Below are positions 30,074-42,762 of a stretch of DNA of 64,000 nt, piece after piece. Origin of the DNA: Betaproteobacteria bacterium (lineage in GTDB: Bacteria; Pseudomonadota; Gammaproteobacteria; Burkholderiales; SG8-39); the NCBI GenBank assembly GCA_022340285.1, contig JAJDOG010000024.1, forward strand, positions 1 through 64,000. The letters are read 5' to 3'. The notes below the pieces were generated by a model. The model saw only the letters and a list, made by a program, of their open reading frames with translations, was not told the origin of the DNA and ran no database searches. Numbering within the stretch: the stretch's first letter is position 1; each line of letters begins with the position of its first letter. The translations under genes and the position numbers were made by a program.

Positions 30074-31057
30074 ATGCGGTGGTGCGGAACGCGGCTCGGA
30101 ATACTGCTTATCCTTGCACTCGCCATGACGCGCGCAGCGGCGCTTGACCTGCAGGGTCATCGCGGCGCGCGCGGCCTTGCGCCGGAGAACACGCTGCCCG
30201 CGTTCGCGCGCGCACTCGCGATCGGCGTCACCACTCTCGAGCTCGACTGCGGCGTGACGCGCGACGGCGTCGTCGTGGTCAGCCACAACCGCGCGCTCGA
30301 TCCCACCATCACACGCGGCCCGGACGGGGAGTGGTTGCCCGATTCCCCGCTCATCAGCGCTCTGGATGCGGCAACGCTCGCGCGCTTCGATGTCGGGCGT
30401 ATCCGCCCGGGCTCCGACTACGCGCGTCGCTTTCCCGAGCAGCTCGGTATGGACGGCGTGCGTATTCCGCGTCTGGCGGAAGTCTTCGAGCTCGCGCACC
30501 GCGCGGGAAATCGGACGGTGCGATTCAACATCGAGACGAAGATCGACCCGGCCCGGCCCGAGGAGACCGTCGGCCCGCAAGCGTTCGCACGCGCTCTGAT
30601 CGCGGTCGCACGCGAGCACGGCGTCGCAAACCGAACCATTGTCCAGTCGTTCGACTGGCGCACCCTCCGGATCGTGCAGGCCGAGGCGCCGGAGATCGCC
30701 ACCGCCTATCTCACCATCCAGCAGCCCGGCGAGGACAACATTCGCGCCGGCGACGAGGGTTCGCCGTGGACCGCCGGCATGCGCTATCGCGACCACGGCT
30801 CGGTGCCCAGGATGGTCAAAGCCGCGGGCGGCGCGATCTGGTCGCCCTACTATCGCGACCTGACGGCCGCGCTGCTGGATGAATCGCACCGTCTCGGCCT
30901 GAAAGTGATTGCGTGGACGGTCAACGATCGCGGGGAGCTGGACCGCTTGATCGGCCTGGGCGTGGACGGCATCATCTCGGACTTTCCGGACCGGCTGCGC
31001 GAGGCGGCGGACGCGAACGGGCTGCCATTGCCTCCACCGACGCCAGTCGAGCCCTAG
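30074..31057 (+). CDS. Exported glycerophosphodiester phosphodiesterase
   Basis: Signal peptide then [76 protein letters not shown]. Confidence 0.93.
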
Positions 31058-31116
31058 TTCAGTCGCGCATCCTCGCGGCGCCTGCAACCGTACTTCAGGC
31101 AAGGAGGGTTGCAACG

Positions 31117-31923
31117 ATGGGGTGGGTCAACGAATTTGCCGGCCGCAGGCTTGCGCGTTTCCTGACGCAGCCGGTCCGGCAAAGCACCCAAATCGCCACC
31201 GCCACCCACGAACAGCTCGCGGCGGCACTGCAGCCCGCCGACGTAGTGCTCCTCGAGGGCAACACCCGCGTCAGCGTGGCGATCAAGTACCTCACCCAGT
31301 CGACGTGGTCGCATGCGGCGCTCTACATTGGCGATGCGCTGCCGCCCGGCAAGCCGTGGCAGCTTCCGCGAGTCCTTGTGGAAGCTGATCTCGAGGAGGG
31401 CGTGCGTGCTGTCCCGCTAGCGAACTACGCGCGCATGCATACACGTATCTGCCGCGCCGTGGGTTTGAGCGACGCGGATCGGAAGCGAGTGGTCGGATAC
31501 GTCGTCGACCGCATCGGCCAGCAGTACGATCTCAAGAACGTCTTCGACCTTGCGCGTTATCTGCTTCCGGTGCCTCCCGTCCCCACGCGATTCCGGCGGC
31601 GCATGCTCGCGCTGGGCAGCGGCGATCCGACCCGCGCGATATGCTCCACACTCATCGCGCAGGCGTTCCAGGCGGTACGTTATCCGATCCTCCCCGAAGT
31701 CCGGCGGGAATGGGCGGACGATCCCGCGTCCGCGGATTTTTTCGCGGACGTCTATCGCATCCGTCACCACAGCCTGTTCGCGCCACGCGATTTCGACATC
31801 TCGCCGTTCTTCCAGATCGTCAAGCCGACGATCGAAAGCGGATTCGACTACCGCGCTCTGCGATGGGATGACGCGGCGGACAGCGCGGAACGGTCTCGAC
31901 CCAGCGAAGCGGACGCAGCCTGA
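31117..31923 (+). CDS. YiiX/YebB-like permuted papain-fold (NlpC/P60-like) protein
   Basis: ADVVLLEGNTRVSVAIKYLTQSTWSHAALYIGD (His) and RAICSTLIAQAFQAVRYPILP (Cys). Confidence 0.8.
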   Translation: MGWVNEFAGRRLARFLTQPVRQSTQIATATHEQLAAALQPADVVLLEGNTRVSVAIKYLTQSTWSHAALYIGDALPPGKPWQLPRVLVEADLEEGVRAVPLANYARMHTRICRAVGLSDADRKRVVGYVVDRIGQQYDLKNVFDLARYLLPVPPVPTRFRRRMLALGSGDPTRAICSTLIAQAFQAVRYPILPEVRREWADDPASADFFADVYRIRHHSLFAPRDFDISPFFQIVKPTIESGFDYRALRWDDAADSAERSRPSEADAA

Positions 31924-31940: not shown

Positions 31941-33359
31941 TCAGCGCGGCGCGCCGCCCGTGACGAGGCCCGCGAGCGCCACGACGGCGTGGGTGAAGCA
32001 TTCGGCGGGCGCGCGCGTCAATCCGGCGCCGACCTGACCGACGCCCGGCTCCCGGTGCGCGATCCCCGTGTTGATTGCCGGGAGAATGCCCGTGTCCACG
32101 ACCTTGCGCACGTCAATGCCCGCGGGCGTCCCGGCGAATTCGAGCTGCGGGATGGTAAAGGCGGCGTTTTGCCCGAGCGTGATGTGCAGCATTTCCATCG
32201 TGTTCGCGAGCGCAAGCTGCGGCGTGCCGCCGACGAACTGCACGATCGCCGGCGCCGCGGCCATCGCGAATCCACCGATCCCGGCGGTCTCGGTGATCGC
32301 GCTGTCGCCAATGTCGCGCGCCGCGTCCGCACGCGTATACCCGGAGAAGTAAAGACCCTCCACCATGGGAGCGGGAGCGGTGAACCACGTGTCGCCGGTG
32401 CCGCTCACGCGAATGCCGAACTCGACGCCGTTGCGCGCCATCGTCGTGACCATGCTGCTCCCGGGCACCCCCCGCGCCGCGTCGAGCATGTTCTTGCACG
32501 CGGCCATGCTGACGTTGAGAAAGAAGAAGTCGTTGCCGACCACGAACTCCAGCGCGTCCGCAGCGTCGCGCGCGGAGATGCCGGCCTTCAGCGCGCCGAG
32601 CACGAGTTGCTTCATCAGGAGTCCGCTGGCCGCGACGTTTCGGTTGTGCATCTCGTCGCCCATGTGGAGCGCGCGCGCCATGAGCGGCTTCAACTCGATC
32701 GGACCGATCGCGTGCAAGGCAGCCTCGACCACCGGCGCGAGATGTGAGGCCATCCAGCGCAATCGGTCGAGCACTTCGGGGCTGTTCGCGCCGTAGCGGA
32801 GCACCTTGCCGAGTCCCTCGTTGAGATTGCTGTAGGTCATGTTGCCGTGACGCGCATTACGCACGATCCAGACCGGCATGGACGGGCTGATCACGCCGGC
32901 CATGGGGCCTACCGCACCGTGGTGATGACATGGTGCGAAACTGATCTCGCCCCGCCCGGCGATCTCGCGCGCCTCCTCGGCATCACGCGCCCAGCCTTCC
33001 AGCATCGCCGCGCCGATCACGGCTCCCTGCATCGGCCCGCACATGGTGTCCCAGCCGATCGGCGGCCCCGAATGCAGCAATGTGCGGCTCCCCATACCGC
33101 GAATGACTTCGCGCGCGATACCGATCCCCTCCAGCACGGGTTCCGCGTCCAGGTAGGCCGCAAAAGCCTGCCGGTTTGCATCTTCGACCACAGGATTGCC
33201 GACCAGGTTGGCGAGCGCGCGAACGACCTGCGCGTCACCGCCTGCCGGTGGCGACCATTGCACGCGAGTTACCGGGACACCTGCGGCAGCGATCGGATCG
33301 GCGAATGCGTCGATCCCGAGATTGACGACGGAGAGAGGATTGCCGATGAGGGTGCTCAT
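31941..33359 (-). CDS. DUF1116 / YlbE (AllG)-like protein
   Basis: NPLSVVNLGIDAFADPIAAAGVPVTRVQWSPPAGG; GPPIGWDTMCGPMQGAVIGA; APCHHHGAVGPMAGVISPSMPVWIV; directly follows fdrA with ATGA overlap. Confidence 0.88.
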   Translation of the reverse strand: MSTLIGNPLSVVNLGIDAFADPIAAAGVPVTRVQWSPPAGGDAQVVRALANLVGNPVVEDANRQAFAAYLDAEPVLEGIGIAREVIRGMGSRTLLHSGPPIGWDTMCGPMQGAVIGAAMLEGWARDAEEAREIAGRGEISFAPCHHHGAVGPMAGVISPSMPVWIVRNARHGNMTYSNLNEGLGKVLRYGANSPEVLDRLRWMASHLAPVVEAALHAIGPIELKPLMARALHMGDEMHNRNVAASGLLMKQLVLGALKAGISARDAADALEFVVGNDFFFLNVSMAACKNMLDAARGVPGSSMVTTMARNGVEFGIRVSGTGDTWFTAPAPMVEGLYFSGYTRADAARDIGDSAITETAGIGGFAMAAAPAIVQFVGGTPQLALANTMEMLHITLGQNAAFTIPQLEFAGTPAGIDVRKVVDTGILPAINTGIAHREPGVGQVGAGLTRAPAECFTHAVVALAGLVTGGAPR

Positions 33360-34945
33360 GCCTTTCTCCGTTTGCTTGCCGACCGACTCGGTGCGGCGGC
33401 GGTGCCGCGCTTGGCGATCGCGGCGGCGATGCGTATCGCGTCGGCGTTGCTCTGGCCCAGCACGACACCGGCGTCACGAAGTGTCGCCTCCTGGCGCGGA
33501 AGATCCTGCGGATCGTCGGCGGTGCCGCAGAGGAATGCGACGAACGCGATTTGACGCTTGCGGCGCTTGGCCGCGGCCTGCGCGGTGCGAATGGCGGGCA
33601 CCATTTCGGCGGACGGATCCGGGTGAGCGCCATGGCCCAGCACGACGTCGAGCACGATGACGGCGACCTCGGGATCTTCCGCCTCGCGCAGGATCCGGTC
33701 ATTTCGCAACCTGTGGTCGATCATCGGATGCGGCCGGCCACGCGTGAACTCGTCGGCACCGAGATCGATGACCGTGTGACCGTGGCTCGTCCAGGGGTTA
33801 CGAAGCGCGAACTTCTTGTGCACCGGTGCGTTCGACCAGACCTCGTCCCCAAGGGCCGCGCCGAGTAGCCAGGATGCTTCGTAGGCGAACGTGCCCCCGC
33901 TGTACAGGCCTCGCACACAGCGCTGGCCGCGCGCGAAGCGTGCCCGGAAGGGCGGTGCACGCGCTGCGGTGCGGCGCGCCGGCGCCCGACGCGCCGCAAG
34001 CGAAGTCGCGATACGGGCTGCATCCTCGAGCGTCCGGGCGTAGTGCAAGTTCCCGTCCTTTGCCGCGGGCGGCTCGGCGCCTACGAAGCATACGACGGTC
34101 GGCTTCCGGATCTTGCGGGCGGCGGCGAGGACATTGCGGGCGATGCTCGGAGCTGGCGGCTTGGAGACGAGCACCAGCACCCGGGTGCCCCGATCCCCGG
34201 CGAGCGCCTGGATTCCGGCGAGCATCGACACGCCGCCCACCGCTTCGGAGAGATCGCGGCCGCCCGTGCCGAGCGCGTGGGACACGCCCTGGCCATAGCG
34301 ATCGATGAGCGAGGTGATTTGCTGAAGTCCGGTCCCGGATGCGCCCACGCAGCCGATCACGCCACGGCGCACGACATTCGCGAAGGCGAGCGGGACGCCG
34401 TTCACGATCGCCGTCCCGCAGTCCGGGCCCATCACGAGGAGGTTCCGTGCCTGCGCGAGCGACTTGATCGCGACCTCGTCCTCGACCGAGACGCCATCGC
34501 TGAAGAGCATCACGTTCAGTCCGAGTCGCAGCGCCTTCATCGCCTCGGCCGCCGCATACTCGCCGGGCACCGAGACGAGCGCGAGATTTGATTGCGGTGC
34601 TGCGGCGATCGCCATGGCGGTCGAACGCGGCGCGACCGGTTCGGGTCCTCCGCCGTGCGCGGCCGGCGCCAGCGCACTCGTTGCAAGGCTTCGCTCGGCT
34701 TCGCCGAGCGCGCCGGCGAGCGCCTTGTCGCTCGTCGCCCGCACGACGATGAGCACGTCGCTCGGACGGGCATCGGTGTCGTCTGTCAGCAGACCGGTTT
34801 GGCGCAGAAGATCGACATTGCCCTCGGTCGCCATGACGAGCGACGCCTGCTCGACACCGGGCATCGCCGCGAGCGCGGCGGATAACTTCATGAGCGCGAT
34901 CGAATCGCGGTATGCGCCGCGAACGATTCGCGTGGCGGTGGCCAT
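33356..34945 (-). CDS. fdrA: FdrA (AllF)-like protein, acyl-CoA synthetase-type fold
   Basis: VVRGAYRDSIALMKLSAALAAMPGVEQASLVMAT; MGPDCGTAIVNGVPLAFANVVRRGVIGCVGASGTGLQQITSLIDRYGQGVSHALGTGGRDLSEAVGG. Confidence 0.88.
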   Translation of the reverse strand: MATATRIVRGAYRDSIALMKLSAALAAMPGVEQASLVMATEGNVDLLRQTGLLTDDTDARPSDVLIVVRATSDKALAGALGEAERSLATSALAPAAHGGGPEPVAPRSTAMAIAAAPQSNLALVSVPGEYAAAEAMKALRLGLNVMLFSDGVSVEDEVAIKSLAQARNLLVMGPDCGTAIVNGVPLAFANVVRRGVIGCVGASGTGLQQITSLIDRYGQGVSHALGTGGRDLSEAVGGVSMLAGIQALAGDRGTRVLVLVSKPPAPSIARNVLAAARKIRKPTVVCFVGAEPPAAKDGNLHYARTLEDAARIATSLAARRAPARRTAARAPPFRARFARGQRCVRGLYSGGTFAYEASWLLGAALGDEVWSNAPVHKKFALRNPWTSHGHTVIDLGADEFTRGRPHPMIDHRLRNDRILREAEDPEVAVIVLDVVLGHGAHPDPSAEMVPAIRTAQAAAKRRKRQIAFVAFLCGTADDPQDLPRQEATLRDAGVVLGQSNADAIRIAAAIAKRGTAAAPSRSASKRRKA

Positions 34946-34979: not shown

Positions 34980-35732
34980 CTACTTGCCGGACCAGTGCAC
35001 GAACCGCTTCTCCATCAGGAGAAACAGCAGATTGAGGCCGTACCCGAGCGCGCCTGCCGCGAAGATCGCCGCGTACATGTCGGGCATCTCGAAGAGCTGC
35101 TGGGCCTCGAACACGCGCTGGCCAAGGCCGTCGGTGGAGCCGATGAACATCTCCGCAACCACGACGATCACCAGCGCAAGCGATACCCCGTTGCGCAAGC
35201 CCACGAAGGTCTGCGGCAGCGACTCTAGCAGCATCACGTCCGTGAGCACCCGAAACCGCGTCGCGCCCATCACCTTGGCGGCGAGCAGCCGGGTCTTGCG
35301 GGCGTTCATGACGCCGTACGCGACGTTGAACAGGATCACCAGCGCCGCGCCGAATGCCGCGACCAGGATCTTGGTCAGATCGCCGACGCCGAAGATCACC
35401 AGGAAGAGCGGAAACATGGCCGAGGCCGGCGTCGAGCGGAAGAAGTCGATCACGAATTCGACCGACCGGTAGATCCGCTCGTTCGATCCCAGCGCGACGC
35501 CGATCGGAATCGCGATCACCGCCGCGATCGCGGTCGCATAAGCGGTCCGCTCGACCGTGCGCCAGAAATCGTAGCCGAGCTTTCCGCCGGCCATTCCCTT
35601 CACCAGCGCGGCGAAGGCGGCCTCCGGGGGAGGCAGCAGCACCGGGTCGACCACTCGCGCCCACACGGCCAGATACCAGACAACGATCAGGCCGGCGACC
35701 CCGACGAGCGGCAGGAGCGATTCGCGTTTCAT
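34980..35732 (-). CDS. ABC transporter permease, SsuC/TauC/NrtB type
   Basis: Multiple TM segments; AFGAALVILFNVAYGVMNARKTRLLAAKVMGATRFRVLTDVMLLESLPQTFVGLRNGVSLALVIVVVAEMF. Confidence 0.92.
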   Translation of the reverse strand: MKRESLLPLVGVAGLIVVWYLAVWARVVDPVLLPPPEAAFAALVKGMAGGKLGYDFWRTVERTAYATAIAAVIAIPIGVALGSNERIYRSVEFVIDFFRSTPASAMFPLFLVIFGVGDLTKILVAAFGAALVILFNVAYGVMNARKTRLLAAKVMGATRFRVLTDVMLLESLPQTFVGLRNGVSLALVIVVVAEMFIGSTDGLGQRVFEAQQLFEMPDMYAAIFAAGALGYGLNLLFLLMEKRFVHWSGK

Positions 35733-35742
35733 GGGTGCACGC

Positions 35743-36564
35743 TCATGCCTTGCGCACTTCGCGCTGGAAGATCTCCAGGCAGTGGCCCTTCAGGTGAACG
35801 TACGCCGGATCGGACAGCGTCTCGTCGCTGCGCGGGCGCGGCAGAAGCACGTCGGGGAAGGCGGCGATCGTCGCCGGGCGGCGCGAAAGAAGCAGCACGC
35901 GATCGGCGAGATACACCGCCTCTTCCAGGTCGTGCGATACCAGCACCATCGTCGTGCGGGTCTCGTTGAACACGCGCTGGAGCTGATCGCGCATGAACAG
36001 CGTCATCTCGTAGTCGAGCGCCGAGAACGGCTCGTCCAGGAACAGCACCTCGGGATCGACCACCAGCGCGCGCATGATCGACACCAGCTGCTGCTGTCCG
36101 CCGGAAAGCTCGTACGGGTAGCGCGTCAGGTCGATCTTCACGCCGAGGTGCGCGACCAGCCGGTCGACGCGCCGCGCGCGCTCCGCCGCGTCCATCTTCG
36201 CGATCTTGAGCGGGTACTCGATGTTCTTCCACGCCGACATCCACGGAAAGAGCGCCTCGCGGTAGTTCTGGAAGACGTACCCGATCTTGGTCTCGCGGAG
36301 CGGCTTGCCGCCGAAGAGGATCGTCCCCGCGTCAGCCGGGATCAGGCCGGCAATCAGGTTGATCAGCGTCGACTTGCCGCACCCGTTCGGCCCGAACACC
36401 GATACAAACCTGCCGCGCGGCACGTCGAGGTCGAAGTTGTCGTAGACGGGCGCGCCCTGGAAGCACTTCGTCAGGCCGCGGATCGTGATGTGCACGGGCT
36501 CGGCCGCAGGCCGCTCCGAGCGATCCGTCGCACCGCTTGCCTTCGCCGTCGCGGCCTGCCCCAT
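35743..36564 (-). CDS. ABC transporter ATP-binding protein, SsuB/TauB/NrtD type
   Basis: Walker A FGPNGCGKSTLINLIAGL; YELSGGQQQLVSIMRALVVDPEVLFLDEPFSALD. Confidence 0.95.
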   Translation of the reverse strand: MGQAATAKASGATDRSERPAAEPVHITIRGLTKCFQGAPVYDNFDLDVPRGRFVSVFGPNGCGKSTLINLIAGLIPADAGTILFGGKPLRETKIGYVFQNYREALFPWMSAWKNIEYPLKIAKMDAAERARRVDRLVAHLGVKIDLTRYPYELSGGQQQLVSIMRALVVDPEVLFLDEPFSALDYEMTLFMRDQLQRVFNETRTTMVLVSHDLEEAVYLADRVLLLSRRPATIAAFPDVLLPRPRSDETLSDPAYVHLKGHCLEIFQREVRKA

Positions 36565-36583: not shown

Positions 36584-37567
36584 CTAGAAATGGTAGAGAT
36601 ACTTGGTGACGTCCACCTTTTGCGACAGGATGCCGCTCGCGGTCGAGAAGTCGATGAATTTCTGGAACTCGGCCTTGTTCCCCGCGGTGAGGTCCGTGAT
36701 CTTGGTGAACTTCACCAGCGGGACCGTCGCGACCACCGAGTCGGGCGTGAACGTGTTCTTCGCGAGGTACTTGCGCGCCTCCTGCGGGCTCGTGTTGATG
36801 AAGTCGATTGCCTTGAGCCAGGCCGCGGTGTAGCGCTTCGCCACGTCCGTGCGGTTCTTGATGAAATCCGAGGAGATCACGCCGCCCGCGATCCACGCGA
36901 GCGCCTTGGGGTCGCCGAGGATGTACTTCGCGATCACGCCGGCCTCCAACGTGGTCGCGACGCCGTTCGCGCGCATGACCGACGCGTTGGGCTCGAGCGT
37001 ATAGCCCGCGTCGAAAGTCCCGGCGGTCATCGCGTTGATGTGCTGGCCCATGTCGAGCTGGTCGAGCGTGTAGTCGCCCTCCTTGAGCCCGACTGCGGCA
37101 AGGACCGCCTTGGCCATCGTCACGTTCGCCGGCCCCGGCGCCGACATGATCTTCATGCCCTTCAGGTCGGCGAGCGAATTCGCCTTCACGCCCTTGCGCA
37201 CGACGAACTGCTCCATCTGGTACTGGGCATTCTGCGCGTTGATCGAGATGTACATCGCGACGCCCGGTTTCTTCAGGTCCGCGTTCATGCCCTCGATCGT
37301 CACGAGCACGGCCGATGCGTCGATCTGGTTGGTGATCAGCCCAGCGACGTTCGGCGGGCCGCCGATCAGTCGGACCATCTCCACATCGATCCCGGCGTCC
37401 TTGAAGAACCCGCGATCCCGCGCCACGAAGTATGGCAGCGAAGAACTGACCGGAAACACTCCGACCTTCACCTTGTCGAGCGCCTGCGCGCCCACCGGCC
37501 AGAAGAAAGCTGATACCACCACTGCGGCGGCGGCCAGCCGCCCGAAGATCCCTTTCGCCTTGCTCAT
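36584..37567 (-). CDS. ABC transporter substrate-binding protein, NMT1/SsuA-like
   Basis: Signal peptide; VKVGVFPVSSSLPYFVARDRGFFKDAGIDVEMVRLIGGPPNVAGLITNQIDAS. Confidence 0.92.
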   Translation of the reverse strand: MSKAKGIFGRLAAAAVVVSAFFWPVGAQALDKVKVGVFPVSSSLPYFVARDRGFFKDAGIDVEMVRLIGGPPNVAGLITNQIDASAVLVTIEGMNADLKKPGVAMYISINAQNAQYQMEQFVVRKGVKANSLADLKGMKIMSAPGPANVTMAKAVLAAVGLKEGDYTLDQLDMGQHINAMTAGTFDAGYTLEPNASVMRANGVATTLEAGVIAKYILGDPKALAWIAGGVISSDFIKNRTDVAKRYTAAWLKAIDFINTSPQEARKYLAKNTFTPDSVVATVPLVKFTKITDLTAGNKAEFQKFIDFSTASGILSQKVDVTKYLYHF

Positions 37568-37625: not shown

Positions 37626-38720
37626 TCATTCACCGACGTCCACGACCGCGATCACCGGGCCGCCACCGTGCGGGCCCTGGTGCATCGCGTCGACCGAGAC
37701 GAACACCGCCGGATCGCCGATCGCGGCCGCGGCGATGCCGCCGACCGCCGCCTTCGAGTGTCGGTGATGATGCACGTCCGAATCGTCCAGCATGATCTGC
37801 CGCCGGCCGCGCAGCTTGCCGCGATGGTCGGCTTCGCACTTCATGAAGCAGTTGACGAGCCGCGACCCGAGGTCCTCGGCACGCGGCCGTTCCGGCAGGT
37901 CGAGGCCGGCATTGCGAATCGCCGCGTAGATCCCGTCGATATCGAGTGCGTCGCGCATCACCCCGTGACCGATCCGGTAGCGTCCGCCGGCGCCTGACTT
38001 GTTGCCGAGCAGCACGATCTGCGCGGCGTCGAGTTCCACGCCCGAGGAGCAGGAGGCGACCGACGAATACAGATCGAGGTCCCTGCAGATCTGCTCGGCC
38101 TTCGGCATCGCGATCTCGCCCAGCGCCACCGCGATGCCGAGGCCGGTCGTGCCGTTCGATACCCCCATCGAGTCGTGCACCTCGCAGGCGACGGTGTTGC
38201 CGCGCTGCTGGGCATCCTGGATCGAGTCGATCGTGAGCAGCGGCGTCTTGGTCTGCACGTAGTGCACGTCCTTCGGGTTCGAGATACCTGCCGCGCGCAT
38301 TGCGAGACGCACCCCCTCGGCCACCTTCTCGACCATCGCCGGGCGTCCGATGTCCTCGGGCAGGATGGTCGGGCTCATCGCGGTGCCGATCACGAGCCGG
38401 TCCTTGTTCTGCGGGCCCGTCTTCGCGTTCGCGGCGAACACCGTCGCGTGCGGCGTGATCACCCCGTCGCAGCCCCCCGACCACACCATGGGGATCGCTT
38501 TCACCTCGCGCTCGGAGCGCGTGCCGAGCCGAAGCAGCACGGCGCGAAACGCCTGGTCCGCCAGGATACGCGTGAAGTCGTTGACCCCGCCGTTGCCTTC
38601 GGTCTTGCCGATGACCGCCGCCACCTCGTCGGCCGTGAACCGGCCCTCGCGAATACAGTTCTCCAGCCCGGACGCATCCTGCACACTCTTCAGCTCGACC
38701 TTCGCGACTTCAATGGCCAT
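37626..38720 (-). CDS. Ring-opening amidohydrolase, cyanuric acid hydrolase (AtzD)/barbiturase family; substrate not assigned
   Basis: Three internal repeats, each with Lys and Ser motifs: IGKTEGNGG / [23 protein letters not shown] / [77 protein letters not shown]. Confidence 0.93.
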
Positions 38721-38733
38721 CCGATGTCCTTCG

Positions 38734-40623
38734 TCACATCCGCGGCGCGAACTCGCCGCGCAGCATCTTCTCGTACCCGGGCCCGCGATCGACCATTGGC
38801 GGTTGCCCCTCGCGCGCCGCGCGCAGCCCGGCGCGAAGCTTCTCGGTCGCCGCGATGTCTATCGTCGCCTCCTCGCCATCCCGGGTGAGCACGACGCCAT
38901 AGTCCGCGCGCGCCGCCTCCGGGGAGACCTTACCCTGCAGCACATCGCGCTGCACGAGCTCTGGCTCGCGCTCGAGCGGATCGCCCCAGCCTCCGCCACC
39001 GGTCGTGACCACGCGCATCACCTGCCCGGCCGCCAGCGGCTCGCCGTCCACCAGGCCACCGAGATCCTTCGCCCTGCCGTGGAGATCCACGGTGACGCAG
39101 AACGGCTTGCCGGCCTTGCCGCCGTTCAGCCCGTAGCAGCCGAGGCGAACGCGGTCCGCCGTCACGATCGTGTGGCAATCGACGAGCACGCGATAGTGCT
39201 TCTCGTAGCCTAGACCGCCGCGCCGCTGGCCCGCGCCGCCGGAGTCGGTCGCGAGGGCGAGCTTCTCGACGATCACCGGGAAGCGGTTCTCGGTGAACTC
39301 TGCGGGCTGATTGCGCGAGTCGGGGACGATGTGGATCACGTCGGAGCCGTCGGCATAGAACCGGCCGCCGCTGCCGCCACCCAGCACCTCGCGCGAAAGG
39401 AAGGGCTTGCCTTGCGCGTCATTTCCATAGAAGCCGGTGTAGCGGATCGTTTCCTGATCGGCTGGCATGCGTCCTCCCACCGCCTGGGCGACGACGCCGG
39501 CGAGCAGCCCGAGCGAGCGCAGCAGCACGAACGACCGAGCGTTGGTCGCGGCCGGCCACTCCGGTGTGATCAGCGTGCCCTTGGGCGGAAACACGACTTC
39601 GAACACTTCGCATACGCCCTCGTTCACGAAGATCTCGGCGGCGCGCTCGGGCGAGTCGGCGAGGCTGCGCAGCACCGGGGCGATCCACTTGATCAGGAAC
39701 GCCCCGTCGGCGTAGTCGGCCGGCCAGTTGATCGGTCCGGACGACTGCGGTGCCGTGCCGCTGAAGTCCAGCGTGATTCGATCGCCGCGCTTGGTCATCC
39801 TGAGCGCGAGCTTGTGCAGCTTCGGATCGGTGACGCCATCGTGCTCGACGAAGTCCTCCCATGCGTACTCGCCGTCGGCGATCTTCGGCAGGAGCTCGTT
39901 CACGTAGATGTCGCGGCACTTGTCGAGGATTGCCTGGAAGCAGGCCTCGACCGTGTCGGTACCGAACCGCGCGAACAGCTCCTCCAGACGCTCCGCGCCC
40001 ATCACGATCGCCTGCATCTCCGAGTCGAGGTCGGCTTCCAGCATTTCCGGCACGCGTGTGTTGCGACGGATGATCTTGAGGGCATCCTCGTTTCGCTTGC
40101 CCTCGCTGTAGAGCTTGATCGGGGGGATCGCGAGACCTTCCTCGAACACCGTCACCGCGGTGCCAGGCATCGATCCGGGGACCCGGCCGCCGATGTCGTC
40201 GTGATGTCCGAAAGCCTGGATGTATGCGACCACCGCACCGTCGTGGAACACCGGCACCGTCGAGCAGATGTCAGGCAGGTGTCCGATCGAGCCCTCGGTG
40301 AGATAGGTGTCGTTCATCAGGAAGACATCGCCCGGCCGCATGGTCTCGGGCGGGAAATCGCGCACCACGGCATTCGGCATGGCCGAATACGAGCGCCCGG
40401 TCAGCTTGCGGCAATAGCGGTCGAAGACCCCGACGCGATAGTCGTGCGCCTCGCGGATCATCGGCGATCGCGCGGTGCGCTCGATCGCGAACTCGATCTC
40501 GCGCTCGATCGAGTTGAGCGTGCCTTCGACGATCTGCAGCACGATCGGATCGACCTCGACTGGCTGCGTCCGCGCGGGCGGCGTGGGCCAGGGTTTGCGC
40601 TCGGTGGAAGCGCGCGTGGACAT
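38734..40623 (-). CDS. hyuB: Hydantoinase B/oxoprolinase family protein
   Basis: [129 protein letters not shown]. Confidence 0.95.
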
Positions 40624-40641: not shown

Positions 40642-42762
40642 TCATTGCTTGAGCGCCGTCACCTTCTCCCGCACGAGCATGATGCCGTGCGGGTCGACCT
40701 CGAGCCACTGCCCGGGCCAGACGACCGTCGTCGAGCCGAATTCCTCAACGACCGCCGGGCCGTCGAGGCGAAACCCCGCCGCCAGCGCGGCGCGGTCGTA
40801 CACCGGGGTGTCGAGCCACTGGCCGTCGAAGAACACCCTGCGCGCGCCTTTGCGCGCGGGCGTCACCCCGGGCCGTGAATCGAGCTTGGGCAGCGTCGGC
40901 CGCTCGATCACCCCGAACCCGGACACACAAAAATTGACCAGCTCGACCTTCTGCCGACCCCGGTAGTCGTAACCGAAGGCTTTGTGGTGCGCTGCGTGGA
41001 ACGTGTCGAGCAGCTTGGTCGCGAATGCGTGGTCGACCGGACCCGCCGGGGCGATGACACGCACTTCCATCGACTGGCCTGCGTAGCGCAGATCGGCCTC
41101 GCGCACCGTCCGGCAGCGCACCGGATCGATGCCGTCGCGGGCAAGCGTCTCGACTGCCTCGCGCTCGAGCCGAGCGTACACCTCGGCGAGCTCGTCGAGC
41201 GCGAGAGCATCCTCGTGCGTCACGCGCGTCGCGATGTGGTCGGTGCGCCAGTCGACCGCGAGCAGCCCGAAGGCCGAGAGATTGCCCGGGTTGAACGGCA
41301 CGATGCAGCACTTCATCCCGAGCAGCCGCATCACCGCCGGCGACTGCGCTGGTCCTGCGCCGCCGAACGAGAGCAGCGCGAAGCGACGCGGGTCGATGCC
41401 CTTCTGGATGGTCATCTGCCGGATGCAGTTCGCCTGGTTCCAGTCTGCGATCTCGATGATTCCTTCGGCGAGCTCTTCGACGCTCATCGTCTTTCGCGCG
41501 GGTCCGGCCGGGCCGAGGCCCGCTGCGAGTCGCGCGAGCCCGCCGCGCGCACGCTCGACGTCGAGGCGGATGCCACCGCCGATCAGCGCGGGCGGGATCC
41601 GCCCGAGCGCGAGATTGGCGTCGGTGATGGTCGGCTCGTCGCCGCCCTCGGGATAGCACATCGGCCCCGGCACGGCGCCGGCGCTTTTCGGGCCCACTTT
41701 CAGGTGGCCCTCGCGCGAGATCCAGGCGATCGAGCCGCCGCCGGTGCCGATGGTCTCGATCTCGATCATCGGGATGCGCACCGGGAACGGCCCGATGGAT
41801 GCCCCGTTGGTGATGTGCGCGCGCCCGTCCTCGATCAGGCAGATGTCGGTGGAAGTGCCGCCGGCGTCCAGCGTCACCACCTCGCGGAATCCGGCGACCT
41901 CCGCCACCACCGAGCAGCCCAGTGCGCCGGCCGCCGGACCGGAGAGCGCGGTGGTGATCGGCTTGTCGACGACCTGCTCGGCGGAGATCACGCCGCCGGA
42001 GGACTGCATCACGAGAAACGGCTTCGTACCGAGCTCGCGACCGAGCTCGGTACGGATGCGCCGGAGATAGATCGCCATGTGCGGCTTGACGAAGGCGTCG
42101 ACCAGCGTGGTCATCGCCCGCTCGTACTCGCGGTACTCGGGCAGCACCTCGCTCGAGAGCGAGAGCACGAGTTCCGGATACTCCGCAAGCATCGCGTCGC
42201 GCACGCGCTGCTCGTGTGCCGGGTTGGCGTACGAGTGGATCAGGCAGATCCCGGCGGCGCGGATGCCCTTGCGCCTGAAGAACCGCGCCGCGTCGCGCGC
42301 GCTCGCCTCGTCGAGCGGCCGCAGCTCCTCGCCGCGGAAGTTCAGCCGCCCGCCTACCTCGCGGACGAGGTGAAGCGGCACGATGCGCTCGGGCTTCACC
42401 CAGAAGTAGGAGTTGCCGTAGCCGACCGGGACCGCCTGGCGCGCGATCTCGAGAATGTGGCGGAATCCTTCGGTGACCACCAATCCGAGCGAGTCGATCG
42501 CGCCCTGCAGTAGGGCGTTGGTGGCGACCGTGGTGCCGTGCGAGAGCGAGGCGACATCGGCATTATCGGCTTCGCACTGGTCCATGATGTCGCGCACCCC
42601 CTTCACCAGGCCGATCGCGGGATTGGCGGGCGTGCTGGAAACCTTGGTGACGTGCATGACACCCGTCGCGGAATCGACCGCGACGATATCGGTGAACGTT
42701 CCCCCGGTATCGATCCCGATCCGGACCTTGCCCGGCAACGGCCGCGCTGGCACTGCGCTCAT
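40642..42762 (-). CDS. hyuA: Hydantoinase A/oxoprolinase family protein
   Basis: RIGIDTGGTFTDIVAVD; SLSHGTTVATNALLQG; VMQSSGGVISAEQVVDKPITTALSGPAAGALGC; VVTLDAGGTSTDICLIEDG; RRFALLSFGGAGPAQSPAVMRLLGM. Confidence 0.96.
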   Translation of the reverse strand: MSAVPARPLPGKVRIGIDTGGTFTDIVAVDSATGVMHVTKVSSTPANPAIGLVKGVRDIMDQCEADNADVASLSHGTTVATNALLQGAIDSLGLVVTEGFRHILEIARQAVPVGYGNSYFWVKPERIVPLHLVREVGGRLNFRGEELRPLDEASARDAARFFRRKGIRAAGICLIHSYANPAHEQRVRDAMLAEYPELVLSLSSEVLPEYREYERAMTTLVDAFVKPHMAIYLRRIRTELGRELGTKPFLVMQSSGGVISAEQVVDKPITTALSGPAAGALGCSVVAEVAGFREVVTLDAGGTSTDICLIEDGRAHITNGASIGPFPVRIPMIEIETIGTGGGSIAWISREGHLKVGPKSAGAVPGPMCYPEGGDEPTITDANLALGRIPPALIGGGIRLDVERARGGLARLAAGLGPAGPARKTMSVEELAEGIIEIADWNQANCIRQMTIQKGIDPRRFALLSFGGAGPAQSPAVMRLLGMKCCIVPFNPGNLSAFGLLAVDWRTDHIATRVTHEDALALDELAEVYARLEREAVETLARDGIDPVRCRTVREADLRYAGQSMEVRVIAPAGPVDHAFATKLLDTFHAAHHKAFGYDYRGRQKVELVNFCVSGFGVIERPTLPKLDSRPGVTPARKGARRVFFDGQWLDTPVYDRAALAAGFRLDGPAVVEEFGSTTVVWPGQWLEVDPHGIMLVREKVTALKQ

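Follow-up and report, generated by a model that had tools for sequence, protein, structure and literature searches.

An FdrA-AllG gene pair linked to a barbiturase-type enzyme and encoded without adjacent AllH in a betaproteobacterial operon

An eight-gene operon ending in fdrA and allG

The window, by which we mean the whole analysed stretch of 64,000 nucleotides from a Betaproteobacteria bacterium (contig JAJDOG010000024.1), carries on its minus strand a run of eight closely spaced genes (42762-31941) with intergenic gaps of about 10-60 nt, arranged in the order HyuA, HyuB, ring-opening amidohydrolase, ABC binding protein, ATPase, permease, FdrA and AllG (Table 1). As the preliminary description had stated, fdrA and allG (ylbE) overlap at an ATGA, corresponding to a 4-nt overlap of the two reading frames, and close the operon, and the YiiX-like neighbour is convergent. 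It ends 17 nt from AllG.

Table 1. Genes of the operon and the convergent neighbouring gene.
Feature	Position	Strand	Basis or remark
YaeF/YiiX-type Peptidase_C92	31054-31923	+	convergent to AllG
AllG/YlbE (DUF1116) homologue, YahG type, 472 aa	31941-33359	-	PF06545 319 bits; PDB 3clq 428 bits
FdrA/AllF homologue, YahF type, 529 aa, carbamoyltransferase subunit	33356-34945	-	NF004760, PF00549, PF02629
ABC importer permease	34980-35732	-	PF00528
ABC importer ATPase	35743-36564	-	PF00005
ABC importer substrate-binding protein, NMT1/SsuA type	36584-37567	-	PF09084, TIGR01728
Barbiturase-type (probable) ring-opening amidohydrolase, AtzD/TrzD family	37626-38720	-	PDB 5hwe, signature residues, tree
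HyuB-type subunit (hydantoinase B/oxoprolinase)	38734-40623	-	PF02538 453 bits
HyuA-type subunit (hydantoinase A/oxoprolinase)	40642-42762	-	PF01968, PF05378

The binding protein of the ABC importer is presumed to serve the uptake of a ring compound. The two hydantoinase-like subunits are less readily placed, as the best named NCBIfam model for the HyuB-type protein is caprolactamase beta with a score below its cut-off, and the HyuA-type protein reaches 504 bits with the caprolactamase alpha model, below the cut-off of 1000. Both genes are common to the window and the related locus L001 and are not kept across the barbiturase-linked clade described below; they have no explained part in the route we propose, which counts against our main reading. 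Neither a barbiturate-making gene nor an obvious malonamate amidase was found among the operon genes, which likewise counts against this reading.

The ring-opening amidohydrolase

The amidohydrolase matches PDB 5hwe, which we take to be the barbiturase of R. erythropolis, with 482 bits, no cyanuric acid hydrolase scoring above 305. Both residues of the Ser226/Lys156 dyad (Azorhizobium numbering) are present in its alignment. Barbiturases are distinguished by the signature Asn195, His321, Lys325, Val345 and Ser/Ala346 (PMC3758960, Peat et al.), of which the window enzyme carries four of five residues, reading N195, H321, K325, V345 and D346 in AtzD numbering. The aspartate, shared by all six FdrA-linked homologues in place of the Ser or Ala of known barbiturases, counts against a barbiturase reading. 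In the phylogenetic tree the enzyme falls together with 5hwe into a barbiturase clade with a support of 100/100, in which the FdrA-linked enzymes form a subclade of their own (100/99). The enzyme is probably of the barbiturase type, and opening of the barbiturate ring is predicted from these sequence comparisons. When 399 genomes of the order were scanned for the enzyme, in a sample that left out the known barbiturase-linked genomes of the family, only relatives of no more than 45% identity were returned besides the window.

The candidate assignment as cyanuric acid hydrolase was rejected by residues 195, 321, 325 and 345 together with the tree; the label 'cyanuric acid amidohydrolase' of NF052395, which the enzyme matches with 448 bits at a cut-off of 360, is likely an over-annotation. 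Regarding the barbiturase residue equivalent to Arg188 of cyanuric acid hydrolases, PMC4051656 and PMC3758960 disagree, one giving Gln and the other Asn; our alignment has Asn at this position. A second group within the barbiturase clade (L075, L078, L081 and L083) displays the signature N/T/K/V/A, with no FdrA-AllG found nearby; in L186 the gene adjoins genes for TauD-type dioxygenases.

The FdrA-AllG pair and its barbiturase-linked clade

FdrA exceeds the cut-off of NF004760 (525 bits vs 433), combines CoA-binding and CoA-ligase domains (PF02629, PF00549) and matches E. coli FdrA (PDB 3dmy) with 320 bits. Both proteins are intact and under purifying selection, with dN/dS values between the window and L001 of 0.28 for FdrA and 0.22 for AllG. 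Where at least 95% of 26 AllH-linked relatives agree in a residue, AllG retains 91 of 92 positions and FdrA 78 of 80, and a sliding comparison of divergence between the barbiturase-linked and the other clades revealed no specially relaxed region. As the core positions are kept and no stretch is relaxed, nothing in the sequences points positively to the loss of an AllH interface. An AlphaFold model of AllG built with five sequences gave a mean pLDDT of 48.

A segment of about 50 amino acids is located at the AllF C-terminus in E. coli and at the AllG N-terminus in the window (33204-33359). The E. coli AllF tail aligns with residues 9-52 of the window AllG at 41% identity (blastp, E 1.4e-9), and the shifted segment also matches residues 430-477 of 3dmy. 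The segment has thus crossed the fdrA/allG gene boundary between AllF-type systems, as in the FdrA C-terminus of L037, and YahF-type systems. As it can reside in either protein, a direct partnership of FdrA and AllG is suggested.

In a tree of 69 AllG sequences, the window forms a clade of six (100/99) with L001, L002, L049, L050 and L057. Five of these six loci are linked to a barbiturase gene, directly in L049 and L002 and through the same operon in the window and L001, whereas L050 is counted by inference, since its contig begins within FdrA and a barbiturase-FdrA stretch forms the end of a different contig (L073) from that genome. The sixth locus, L057, lies on a 3.7-kb contig on which a binding protein adjoins AllG. 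Genome G090 (L165) shows the same barbiturase arrangement with a cut AllG, and in the FdrA tree it groups with the barbiturase-linked loci at a moderate support of 91/94. The clade probably reflects one evolutionary event, and its loci do not represent independent counts.

Neither AllH nor carbamate kinase was found beside the FdrA-AllG pair in any of the six loci of the clade or in G090. As the sister groups often encode FdrA-AllG-carbamate kinase without adjacent AllH (L046, L048, L051, L052) and more distant groups carry AllH, it seems that AllH was decoupled stepwise. An FdrA-AllG pair without adjacent AllH is not peculiar to this locus; the same arrangement is seen in relatives and in enterobacterial genomes of high quality. 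FdrA-AllG-carbamate kinase occurs without any AllH match in the genome in G292 (draft, 100% complete) and in G308, G328 and G428, whose assemblies consist of one or two contigs each and which we call enterobacterial from the near identity of their genes to the E. coli yah genes. In the latter three (L146, L147, L148), yahD lies directly upstream of yahF, at the position of yahE in E. coli, so these yahD-yahF-yahG clusters appear to be natural variants that have lost the third subunit. The case for AllH independence is stronger in these four genomes than in the barbiturase-linked ones. Stand-alone AllG (DUF1116) genes without nearby FdrA or AllH were also observed (L159-L163, L167, L181, L192, L194), for example with an amidase gene in Ruegeria and, in Rhodococcus opacus, with genes resembling glutamine synthetase.

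The reported lack of AllH (DUF2877) in the window was borne out by a PF11392 search, and a tblastn search of the window, run with seed sequences of AllH and with AllH proteins taken from the loci, detected no remnant at E<1e-3, its positive control having worked. Extended to the whole assembled genome, the PF11392 profile search gave no match while the E. coli positive control was recovered, and a congener AllH, a more specific query without its own positive control, found nothing in this assembly either; the genome-wide absence is however qualified by a contig break beside a second AllG. Carbamate kinase, likewise described as missing from the window, is absent from the whole contig too, whereas absence from the genome does not hold, since contig C118 encodes a candidate (NF009007, 345 bits vs a cut-off of 266). 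In this locus (L040:213-5625) it neighbours, and is divergent from, three genes that encode a permease, a BiuH-like hydrolase and an allophanate hydrolase (TIGR02713, 800 bits). FdrA-AllG would likely work independently of AllH.

A proposed reaction and its relation to known systems

Ureidomalonate, the product of barbiturase, is the homologue of oxalurate with one CH2 more. The preliminary description had left the choice between a minimal two-subunit enzyme and a different reaction, and in view of the intact core and the barbiturase-tied clade both parts probably apply, as a two-gene enzyme acting on a different substrate. Carbamoyl transfer would for the same reasons probably proceed from ureidomalonate rather than oxalurate, and the almost complete retention of the conserved positions in AllG and FdrA speaks for a carbamoyl-transfer chemistry that is unchanged but directed at a new ureide. 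According to this model, the importer of the operon would bring in barbiturate or a closely related compound, whose ring would be opened to ureidomalonate (H2N-CO-NH-CO-CH2-COO-) by the barbiturase-type enzyme, and FdrA-AllG would convert ureidomalonate and Pi to malonamate and carbamoyl phosphate, as AllFGH does with oxalurate. The carbamoyl phosphate may then be used by the C118 carbamate kinase or in biosynthesis. That the operon takes in and degrades barbiturate or a relative, with the two-gene FdrA-AllG running in the phosphorolytic direction on ureidomalonate without a dedicated AllH, has in our estimate an even chance of being correct; that the E. coli enzyme requires all three subunits for full activity counts against it. 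We would more tentatively propose a branch of oxidative pyrimidine degradation that is phosphorolytic and conserves energy, in which barbiturase is followed by an AllH-independent two-subunit enzyme that yields carbamoyl phosphate and not urea.

The pair might instead need AllH in trans from a second AllFGH set that is hidden here by a contig break, which we consider less likely, although several observations point this way. The second AllG of this genome (C18:30-1466) lies 29 bp from a contig end, and in all three congeners G043, G044 and G045 AllH is found directly upstream of the AllG orthologous to this copy, and C18 shares a syntenic run of seven genes with G044 and G045; a second FdrA was searched for in this assembly and not found, as expected if the stretch is absent. 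Four of the seven barbiturase-linked genomes (G044, G084, G085, G053) carry AllH elsewhere, and the proteins of AllH-linked and AllH-less systems show no localised difference in constraint. However, the AllH of the relatives accompanies another AllG and not the barbiturase-linked pair, and of the three genomes without an AllH match, which include this one (G000), G090 and G845 (the genome of L002), both draft assemblies, also possess the barbiturase-linked pair. Upstream of the second AllFGH set, G045 carries a transporter gene for which a search of this genome gave no ortholog (best 39%, distant paralogs only), so the set may be truly reduced here, and C18 represents either an FdrA2-AllH region lost in an assembly gap or a set reduced in this species.

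A change of FdrA-AllG to other chemistry, such as a ureidomalonase releasing malonate and urea or the formation of a CoA thioester via the CoA-ligase fold, appears improbable. The reaction could have shifted in the absence of AllH and a linked carbamate kinase, FdrA does contain CoA-binding and CoA-ligase domains, and the step known to follow barbiturase is that of ureidomalonase (PMC3758960), but the conserved core is nearly unchanged relative to the AllH-linked enzymes and E. coli FdrA, which has the same domains, belongs to a transcarbamylase. We regard it as highly improbable that the ring opener acts as a cyanuric acid hydrolase, with carboxybiuret or biuret being split by FdrA-AllG: the NF052395 score and the joint occurrence of BiuH-like hydrolase, allophanate hydrolase and carbamate kinase genes on C118 would be in line with it, but the enzyme has barbiturase-type residues at 195, 321, 325 and 345 and groups with the R. 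erythropolis barbiturase in the tree.

If ureidomalonate phosphorolysis is true, energy would be saved during pyrimidine breakdown through phosphorolysis of the opened barbiturate ring. The linkage proposes the FdrA-AllG gene pair for the step after barbiturase, and a clade with a conserved core encoded without AllH offers a natural test of the role of AllH. A full-text search of the open-access literature returned no paper linking barbiturase to FdrA or AllG; AllFGH itself was recognised as a transcarbamylase in 2024 (PMC11326118).

Two further, independent links between ring openers and FdrA-AllG were found on a Citrobacter plasmid and in Embleya. The former, Citrobacter freundii pE51_002 (NZ_CP042536.1, L112), is a conjugative IncA plasmid on which a cyanuric acid hydrolase-permease-AllH-FdrA-AllG-carbamate kinase-LysR cluster is flanked on either side by IS26, and hits to both query genes of this cluster came from many plasmids of Citrobacter, Klebsiella, Enterobacter, Leclercia and Raoultella. 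In Embleya sp. NBC_00888 (L114, L189), a barbiturase gene adjoins one for carbamate kinase, and AllG-FdrA-AllH follows at a distance of about 16 kb in a locus that also holds a PucR regulator, a permease, a molybdenum hydroxylase and a carbon-nitrogen hydrolase; the region possibly encodes a full uracil-to-malonate route. From this linkage, FdrA-AllG(H) would seem to be a general toolkit for the cleavage of ureides formed by ring opening (oxalurate, ureidomalonate, carboxybiuret), with each system residing beside its own ring opener. The plasmid cluster resembles the window in placing a ring-opening amidohydrolase beside FdrA-AllG and differs in its true cyanuric acid hydrolase signature (R/T/R/G/G) and the presence of AllH and carbamate kinase.

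The closest functional reference is E. coli AllFGH (fdrA-ylbE-ylbF), the oxamic transcarbamylase, whose reaction takes oxalurate and Pi to oxamate and carbamoyl phosphate and for which allFG without allH yields only 7% of the wild-type oxamate (2.9 +/- 3.3 mM; PMC11326118), so the E. coli background given in the preliminary description was right. Both systems have homologous FdrA and AllG with almost all conserved positions kept, and carbamoyl transfer between ureide and phosphate is predicted for the window pair by analogy. In contrast to E. coli, the window pair has neither AllH nor a linked carbamate kinase, barbiturase takes the place of the linked allantoin genes, and the segment of about 50 amino acids lies in AllG. 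E. coli YahEFG-YahI shares the architecture type (FdrA of about 515-529 aa, AllG of 472 aa), whereas YahG falls on a separate branch of the AllG tree and the window lacks YahE (DUF2877) and YahI. The oxidative pyrimidine pathway of Rhodococcus, in which barbiturase is followed by a hydrolytic ureidomalonase yielding malonate and urea (PMC3758960), has the barbiturase-type ring opener in common with the window, which differs in its Asp346, in linking FdrA-AllG and not a known ureidomalonase, and in its predicted products, malonamate and carbamoyl phosphate.
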